64,000 nucleotides of DNA from an uncultured Acidimicrobiales bacterium (GTDB lineage: Bacteria > Actinomycetota > Acidimicrobiia > Acidimicrobiales > SZUA-35), in NCBI GenBank assembly GCA_937922785.1, contig CALAJQ010000002.1:1-64000 (forward strand), read 5' to 3'. A model generated the notes under the pieces. It was not told where the DNA came from, did no database searches, and saw only the letters and a program-made list of their open reading frames with translations. This document shows positions 37,792-53,427 of the stretch, piece after piece; position 1 is the first letter of the stretch; every line of letters begins with the position of its first letter. A program made the translations under genes and the position numbers.

Positions 37792-38097
37792 CTAGTGGCG
37801 ACAGCTTGGCTTGTGCTCGTGATGAGCTAAGGCAACTAGCTTGACCCCAAACAGCAGGTTCTTGCGGGTCACTAGTTCGACCTTCTCGGCGTAGCTGATT
37901 AGAGCCGGCGCAATCAAGACGGTTAGATCGTCCTCTTTGTGACGACGATAGCTGGAGGTGTTTTTGCCCTTGAGGTAGGTGTCGACCGACACCTCTTCGG
38001 TAGCGCCTCAGGCCGTCGGACTGATGAAGTCGATGGCGGCTGTGCCGCCCTTGCTGGCTATAGCTTGCTTGGCCGATTCAGAAATTACGAGCTCCAT
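37792..38097 (-). CDS. Candidate selenoprotein, CC/Se-motif family, in-frame TGA as Sec
   Basis: A 101-residue frame starting at ATG 38097 and broken by one TGA (38010-38008). Upstream of the TGA it encodes MELVISESAKQAIASKGG and then AAIDFISPTA. Downstream, in the same frame, it continues GATEEVSVDTYLKG and DDLTVLIAPALISYAEKVE to a stop at 37792. An N-terminal VISESA...KGG, Sec or Cys after a central strand, then strand-rich sequence is the layout I know for the small HesB-like CC/Se-motif (seleno)protein family. A SECIS-like hairpin begins 14 bases after the TGA (separate entry). The alternative is a nonsense-mutated gene. Partner function unknown. It converges on ogt and diverges from rmuC. 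Confidence 0.75.
37978..37993 (-). promoter_or_regulatory. Putative bacterial SECIS element
   Basis: On the minus strand GGTGTC-GGTC-GACACC is a perfect 6-bp stem with a tetraloop GGUC. Counting from the base after TGA, the loop Gs are at positions 21-22. In E. coli fdhF the loop (AGGUCU) has its Gs at about 19-20. SelB recognises the GGU loop on such a stem. Both shape and distance fit. Confidence 0.7.
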
Positions 38098-38213
38098 AAC
38101 AACACAGTAACCGTCGGCTCTGCCCGCCTATTCCAAACGCTGCGTGCACCTGGTAAGCGCACCATACAAGGGGTTTTTCGATGCTGTCGTAGGTCATCTT
38201 TAATGTTGTAAAT

Positions 38214-52253: not shown

Positions 52254-52269
52254 CCTTAGGAATCAACAA

Positions 52270-52358
52270 CCAACTAACCGGGGAGCTCGCACTTGCGGGC
52301 TGAGAGGGCAACAAGGCCGACCCGAGAACCTGCTCTGGATAATTCCAGCGAAGGGAGA
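52270..52358 (+). promoter_or_regulatory. TPP (thiamine pyrophosphate) riboswitch
   Basis: The conserved THI box is present: CGGGGAGC, GCTGAGAG, then GAACCTG, CTCTGGATAATTCCAGCG and GAAGGGAG. These correspond to the pyrimidine-sensor GCUGAGA and the GGAUAAUGCCAGC pyrophosphate-sensor helices of TPP aptamers. The final GGGAG (52352-52356) is both the closing strand of P1 and the thiB ribosome site, 9 bases before the ATG. TPP binding would therefore likely block translation. Confidence 0.92.
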
Positions 52359-52365
52359 TTACAAA

Positions 52366-53427
52366 ATGAAACTTACACGTCTGCTTCCGATCTTTATGGG
52401 TCTGGCCCTAGTCGCTGCAGCTTGCGGAGGTTCGGGTGAGCTGAACTCAGAAGCTGTCGCTAGTGCGGACACCGATGGAGTCAACCTGACGCTTGTCACT
52501 CACGACTCGTTCTTAGTGACTGAAGGCATCTTCGACTCCTTTACCTCCGAAACCGGCATTGAGGTTTCGGTTGTTAGCTCTGGTGACGCTGGCGAAGTTG
52601 TTGCCCGTTCGATCCTGACTGCAGGCCAACCTGAAGGGGACGTGCTGTTCGGCATCGACAACACGTTCTTGCAGCGAGGCCTCGATGCTGACTTGTTTGT
52701 GCCTTATGAATCAAGCCTGTTGGCCACAGTGCCCCAAGCGTTACAACTTGACGCTGACAACCGAGTCACCCCGATTGACTACGGCGACGTTTGTGTCAAC
52801 TACTGGATTGACTCACTTCCGGGTGGCGAAGAGCCGTCCACCATTGCCGACTTAGCTAAGCCGCAATTTGCTGCCAGCTTCGTAACACAAGATCCAGAGC
52901 AAAGCTCTCCCGGGTTTGCGTTCCTGCTGGCAACTATCTCGGCCTTCGGCGACGACTGGGAGTCTTACTGGGAAGACCTGGTGGCGAACGGCGTGACAAT
53001 TGGTTCGGGGTGGACCGAGACCTACTACGGCGACTTCATTGCTGGCGGTGGAGACCGAGCTTTGGTGACTTCTTATGCAACTAGCCCGGCCGCTGAAGTC
53101 TTGTTCTCTGAAGTGCCTATCGACTCCGCTCCAACCGGCGTCTTGGCCGACAGCTGTTTCCGTCAGGTTGAGTTCGCTGGAATCCTGCGAGGTACTGAAC
53201 ACCCCGAGGCCGCAGCCAAGTTGATCGATTTCATGCTTTCGGCCCCGTTCCAAGAGGACATCCCACTGAACATGTTTGTGTTCCCGGCCAACAGCGACGC
53301 CGCCTTGCCTGAAGTGTTCAGCACCCACTCGGTCGAAATCGATTCGCCGTTGTCACTAAACCCGGCTGAGATTGAAGAGAACCGATTGGCATGGACTGAG
53401 CGTTGGACCGAAATCGTCAGAGGGTAA
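52366..53427 (+). CDS. thiB: Thiamine ABC transporter substrate-binding lipoprotein
   Basis: A 353-residue protein with a lipoprotein signal (LALVAAACGG), then a ThiB/TbpA-type periplasmic-binding fold: VTHDSFLVTEG, GDVLFGIDNT, PIDYGDVCVNYW. These match the thiamine-binding protein family. Regulation by a TPP riboswitch directly upstream settles the substrate as thiamine or a derivative. thiP overlaps the 3' end. Confidence 0.92.
   Translation: MKLTRLLPIFMGLALVAAACGGSGELNSEAVASADTDGVNLTLVTHDSFLVTEGIFDSFTSETGIEVSVVSSGDAGEVVARSILTAGQPEGDVLFGIDNTFLQRGLDADLFVPYESSLLATVPQALQLDADNRVTPIDYGDVCVNYWIDSLPGGEEPSTIADLAKPQFAASFVTQDPEQSSPGFAFLLATISAFGDDWESYWEDLVANGVTIGSGWTETYYGDFIAGGGDRALVTSYATSPAAEVLFSEVPIDSAPTGVLADSCFRQVEFAGILRGTEHPEAAAKLIDFMLSAPFQEDIPLNMFVFPANSDAALPEVFSTHSVEIDSPLSLNPAEIEENRLAWTERWTEIVRG

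Follow-up and report, generated by a model that had tools for sequence, protein, structure and literature searches.

In a stretch of 64,000 nucleotides of an uncultured Acidimicrobiales bacterium (hereafter, the window), we found a short reverse-strand frame that, on comparison with related sequences, appears to be a functional selenoprotein gene in which UGA at codon 30 is read as selenocysteine (Sec). We put the probability of this at about 0.95, a figure that covers the selenoprotein reading and excludes the function of the protein. Translated with TGA as Sec (U), the frame from ATG 38097 to TAG 37792 has 101 codons plus the TAG and a single TGA (Table 1). The context of residue 30 is P27-T28-A29-U30-G31, and the sole Cys of the protein is that of the C-terminal CRH. 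All that a conventional gene caller lists is a downstream open reading frame of 66 residues from GTG 37992. An earlier reading of the letters of this DNA, without database searches (the sequence-only reading), had described the same frame with its one TGA as a candidate selenoprotein, and had stated that gene callers would report only the 66-residue part or nothing; both statements hold, and the candidate is now supported by homologs with TGA or Cys at the site and by the Sec machinery of the genome. In the mechanism that we propose, SelB would recognise a hairpin just 3' of codon 30 and deliver the Sec-charged tRNA with the UCA anticodon, and reading of UGA 30 as Sec would yield the 101-residue protein.

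Table 1. Coordinates of the features discussed. Positions are those of the window unless a genome (G), contig (C) or locus (L) is given.
Feature	Position	Strand	Basis or remark
Putative selenoprotein gene, Sec at codon 30	37792..38097	-	Translation with TGA=U; a lone in-frame TGA in 40 genomes (source genome included)
UGA, putative Sec codon, residue 30	38008..38010	-	IscA-type proteins: first cluster-binding Cys at the aligned position
Putative SECIS hairpin AGGTGTC-GGTC-GACACCT	37977..37994	-	Codon freeze in homologs; alignment across phyla
C-terminal Cys-Arg-His	37795..37803	-	In at least 19 relatives, a second UGA replaces this Cys
Canonical A-type carrier gene near selA	G000 C21:36827-45553; likewise G010 C169, G017 C15, G018 C4, G064 C28
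Loci with two in-frame TGA codons	L076, L080, L083, L084, L085, L086, L088, L091, L092, L097, L114, L121, L123-L129

Regarding the start of the gene, a Shine-Dalgarno sequence was found at few of the starts in the window and its homologs, and the signal of the window gene itself is weak. A TANNNT pattern lies at -11 to -14 from the ATG in about half of 30 homologs, and the window has TACTGT at -12; this pattern (window region 38098-38122 and the homologs) is as expected for leaderless mRNAs. The window also holds an ordinary TPP riboswitch (52269-52374, forward strand, 57.8 bits).

Conservation of the UGA codon and the selenocysteine machinery

The comparison set consisted of 148 related genomes, the source genome included, 43 of which have a homolog. 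Exactly one in-frame TGA was found in 40 (again including the source genome); the remaining homologs were two intact frames with Cys at residue 30 (Cys30) and one partial match covering residues 69-101 only. All 40 genomes with the TGA form have selA, and the form is absent from all 50 genomes that lack selA (Fisher p = 2.4e-9, although the genomes are related and the samples are thus not independent). Both full-length Cys30 forms (L033 and L036) are in genomes without selA (G014 and G004, respectively), so that the in-frame UGA is matched by Cys in organisms that do not decode Sec. Further Cys30 forms were found in other actinobacterial families (L102, L105, L107, and L108), and no residue other than Sec or Cys was seen at position 30 among the homologs read. 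The subfamily is spread over Acidimicrobiia, other Actinomycetota, Chloroflexota, and one Acidobacteriota metagenome-assembled genome. Across the order and two other phyla the interrupting codon is always TGA and always accompanied by the hairpin, and within the order the TGA form is always in selA genomes; we infer that the TGA is kept by selection.

These data bear on two readings without selenium. One is that two short proteins are made, or that UGA specifies another amino acid such as Trp. GTG 37992 does open a downstream frame, but the N-terminal part would be only 29 residues long and is as conserved as the rest of the protein, the residue that replaces the TGA codon in the Cys30 forms is Cys and not Trp, and the TGA form is absent from the selA-less relatives; the split gene is ruled out by the conserved TGA, and we consider this reading as a whole very improbable. 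The other, a pseudogene created by a nonsense mutation or a sequencing error in an ordinary gene, would fit a frame that is open but for one stop, and the weak Shine-Dalgarno signal, but the conservation of the TGA with its hairpin, and within the order with selA, rules it out and leaves it a negligible probability.

The source genome carries a tRNA-Sec with the UCA anticodon (66.7 bits, above the Rfam cut-off), selA (384.6 bits) adjoining selB (275 bits) on contig 21, and selD (368 bits); selA, selB, selC, and selD are thus all present. The sequence-only reading had named two findings that would speak against it, a lack of homologs with Cys or Sec at residue 30 and a genome lacking selB and tRNA-Sec. 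Such homologs proved plentiful and the machinery complete, and it withstood both comparisons. As a separate observation, the selD gene of the source genome (L047, G000 contig 16:164748-165671) has an in-frame TGA at the usual Sec position, in AGUGCKL, and judging from this codon its SelD is itself a selenoprotein.

Two of the Cys30 loci, L102 (in G628) and L107 (in G802), lack the SECIS codons, yet their genomes have selA. Since Cys30 also occurs in selA-bearing genomes, Cys is an allowed state at this site, and its presence need not mean that the machinery was lost; from their codons and genomes, these two loci are apparent cases in which Sec and Cys were exchanged while the Sec machinery was retained. 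Among 42 homologous loci, the gene neighbourhood revealed no conserved partner naming a pathway, and synteny was seen only among close relatives.

The hairpin downstream of codon 30

The core of the hairpin, GGTGTC-GGTC-GACACC at 37993-37978, begins fourteen bases past the TGA, and its stem can be extended to 7 bp. The GGTC loop is at +21 to +24 past the UGA; a hairpin therefore stands just 3' of the codon with G/GU in its apical loop, in the manner of a SECIS element. The stem and loop are those given in the sequence-only reading, which had also placed them at the same distance as in E. coli fdhF. This was wrong by 2 nt, as the loop of fdhF starts at +19 (its sequence was verified in 5368 E. 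coli genomes) and that of the window at +21. Furthermore, the stem of E. coli fdhF has a bulged U (GGU-U-GCA), whereas the window hairpin has no bulge.

No Rfam family matched the window hairpin. Its folding energy alone is unexceptional (z about -1) and was therefore left out as evidence. The hairpin is significant because it is conserved, with synonymous codons frozen in the TGA homologs and the hairpin codons lost in the Cys30 homologs. In 27 TGA genes, codons +6 to +10 included GTG (27/27), GTC (27/27), GAC (26/27), and ACC (27/27), and Ser, where present, was always encoded by TCG (24/24). The sole synonymous change among these five codons was one GAC to GAT, which keeps a G-U pair, and conserved residues outside the hairpin showed mostly mixed codon use in the same genes. 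At the corresponding codons, the Cys30 genes have GTT AGC GTT AGC ACT and GTG TCT GTA TCT ACA; the freeze is gone. An equivalent hairpin was found in the Chloroflexota and Acidobacteriota members, sometimes one codon later. In two subgroups, the pair adjacent to the loop-closing one is mismatched (GGTGGC or GTGCC against GACACC), which shows that this pair is not essential.

A second in-frame UGA in relatives

In at least 19 relatives, mostly from Chloroflexota, another in-frame TGA stands precisely at the position of Cys98 (the number, in the alignment of homologs, of the Cys of the C-terminal CxH, which is the third-last residue of the window protein). When the homologs were read past the first stop, every member that stops just before the Cys98 position was found to stop at TGA. 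The second TGA is followed by x-His and, within two to four codons, by a real stop, as in APT-TGA-AH-stop versus PTCAH-stop in relatives. Ten of the first 14 two-TGA genes came from the contig and class scans, and four from scanning the Chloroflexota class to which one of the genomes (G852) belongs; 13 of them belong to Chloroflexota records or to that class, and L097 to another family of the class of the window.

In 13 of these 14 genes, the best hairpin after the second TGA has a loop that is located at +19 to +25 and begins with GT or GGT; the fourteenth has CGTGC. None of 23 controls with Cys98 had such a hairpin, and among mononucleotide-shuffled sequences it was seen in 0.18 of 14 on average (maximum 2). 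The scores of the second hairpins were higher than those of the Cys98 genes (p 5e-5), while some single-sequence shuffle values, such as those of L083, L085, and L088, were not significant alone. The hairpins were chosen by pairing, so that the pair counts of the second SECIS are biased; the Cys98 and shuffle controls are the fair tests. In five further genes (L125-L129) from the same class scan, which had no part in setting the criteria, SHG or xAxH stands between the TGA and the stop, and the loop of the hairpin, at +21 to +28, reads CGTGN or CTTGC. The second hairpin lies largely beyond the stop codon, and each TGA has its own SECIS-like hairpin. Given the second TGA at the Cys98 position, its own hairpin, and these controls, the relatives very probably encode two-selenocysteine HesB-like proteins.

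The protein tree, which is weakly resolved, groups the two-Sec forms together, though not as one clade, and requires six changes; these forms may still have a single origin. selA was above the cut-off in seven of the first two-Sec genomes tested (G187, G852, G853, G855, G856, G858, and G859), and in the draft genomes G849, G854, and G860 the selA search gave only a fragment, nothing, or weak paralogs. Apart from the two-Sec forms, two members with U30 (L089, 6001-6420, and L090, 6001-6405) have no C-terminal Cys, with a long acidic C-terminal extension instead.

Fold and family membership

The AlphaFold2 model of the window protein has a pLDDT of 86.9, with about 50 to 67 in the C-terminal tail. 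With VIA-align, the top nine rows were all A-type-carrier-like entries, including SufA (Z 8.3 over 85 residues), IscA (Z 7.7 over 91), and DsrR (7.5), and the next unrelated fold had Z 2.1. Foldseek ranked the same A-type carriers first. The window protein is thus predicted to have the A-type carrier (HesB/IscA/SufA) fold, and to this extent the sequence-only reading, which had assigned it to a small HesB-like CC/Se-motif family, was correct. In a profile comparison, residue 30 (Cys/Sec) pairs with the first conserved Cys of the canonical carriers of the source genome and its relatives, in a match of modest strength (47% probability, E 2e-4).

Pfam had no match for the window protein, PF01521 at its gathering score included, and the same search with all 43 relatives gave scattered weak matches only (best E 0.026). 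The three Cys of PF01521 (the first Cys and the C-terminal CxC) are not all represented, the third position being the terminal His. A search of PDB sequences with the profile found no meaningful match. TIGR01911 did not match the window protein at E up to 10, and its UxGP motif is absent. NF049953 (hypothetical protein DG, 172 positions), considered for its GUxG motif (PMC13188914), had no match in four genomes, none of which was positive, and was rejected.

As for the CC/Se motif family (NF041239), the window protein scored 25.4 bits against a cut-off of 40 and has neither a CC pair nor CxxU. The model was matched by all 43 aligned relatives, and the cut-off was passed by three of the ten scored individually (L075, L091, and L092); in a class-wide scan, the curated model was positive in 5 of 395 genomes, the source genome not among them. 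With a match below the cut-off and no CxxU, the window protein belongs to a distinct subfamily, and with neither motif it is a relative of the CC/Se family and not a clean member, so that this part of the earlier assignment holds only in the looser sense.

A canonical A-type carrier is encoded separately in the genome (C21:36827), and the window protein is therefore not its replacement. In five genomes, such a carrier gene was found roughly 5 to 10 kb from selA (Table 1); this closeness probably represents old synteny.

Possible function of the protein

From the predicted fold and the ligand positions, we infer as the most likely function, at about even odds, that Sec30 and the His-rich C-terminal CxH tail form a selenolate/thiolate site that binds iron, another soft metal, or an Fe-S cluster. 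Sec30 would take the place of the first cluster-binding Cys of IscA-type proteins, the C-terminal Cys-x-His would be at the predicted C-terminal ligand site, and in some Chloroflexota relatives both ligand positions would be Sec; such a metal or cluster role would be apart from that of the canonical A-type carrier of the genome. The C-terminal CGC ligands of the carriers are represented here by only one Cys and one His, which makes cluster binding conjectural. The more specific proposal, that the family is a branch of the A-type carriers in which ligand cysteines have turned to Sec (at the first site, or at both in the two-TGA relatives) and ligate a metal or cluster, we regard as doubtful.

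The main alternative is that the selenoprotein acts in thiol/selenol redox chemistry, with Sec30 and the C-terminal Cys or Sec forming a reversible selenenylsulfide or diselenide without metal. Selenoproteins of known function are mostly oxidoreductases (PMC13188914), and the restriction of residue 30 to Sec or Cys agrees with such a role. However, the predicted fold belongs to Fe-S carriers rather than to thioredoxin, a CxxU/UxxC motif is absent from the window protein, and the His-rich tail beside the C-terminal Cys suits metal binding; metal-free redox chemistry is conceivable, and we give it rather less than an even chance. Because the tail is modelled at low confidence, the geometry from Sec30 to the C-terminal Cys does not decide between the metal site and the redox pair.

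If the metal site does bind iron or an Fe-S cluster, these proteins would be naturally selenolate-ligated, and even di-selenolate-ligated, carriers. The present results add a selenoprotein subfamily that scores below current annotation cut-offs; in the case of the two-Sec forms, gene callers would also lose the last residues. Two positions in one small fold show a natural series of Cys/Cys, Sec/Cys, and Sec/Sec forms, by which the benefit of selenium in a HesB/IscA-like site is directly testable.

Comparison with known systems

Both related families appear with a single Sec in a 2026 catalogue of prokaryotic selenoproteins (PMC13188914). One of them, NF041239 (the Moorella CC/Se motif family (seleno)protein), has in common with the window protein the small HesB-like class, and Sec30 aligns with the CC motif of its Acidimicrobiia members. 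However, its listed motif is CxxU (PMC13188914), where the window protein has PTAU and no CC pair, and its known members are listed with one Sec (PMC13188914), whereas some relatives of the window protein would have two. The other, the HesB-like selenoprotein TIGR01911, is named after the same A-type-carrier-like (HesB) class, but its listed motif is UxGP (PMC13188914) and the window protein has UGAT. With the IscA/SufA/ErpA carriers (PF01521), the window protein shares the predicted fold, the position of the first Cys (Sec30), and the C-terminal Cys, and in place of their C-terminal CGC it has CRH.
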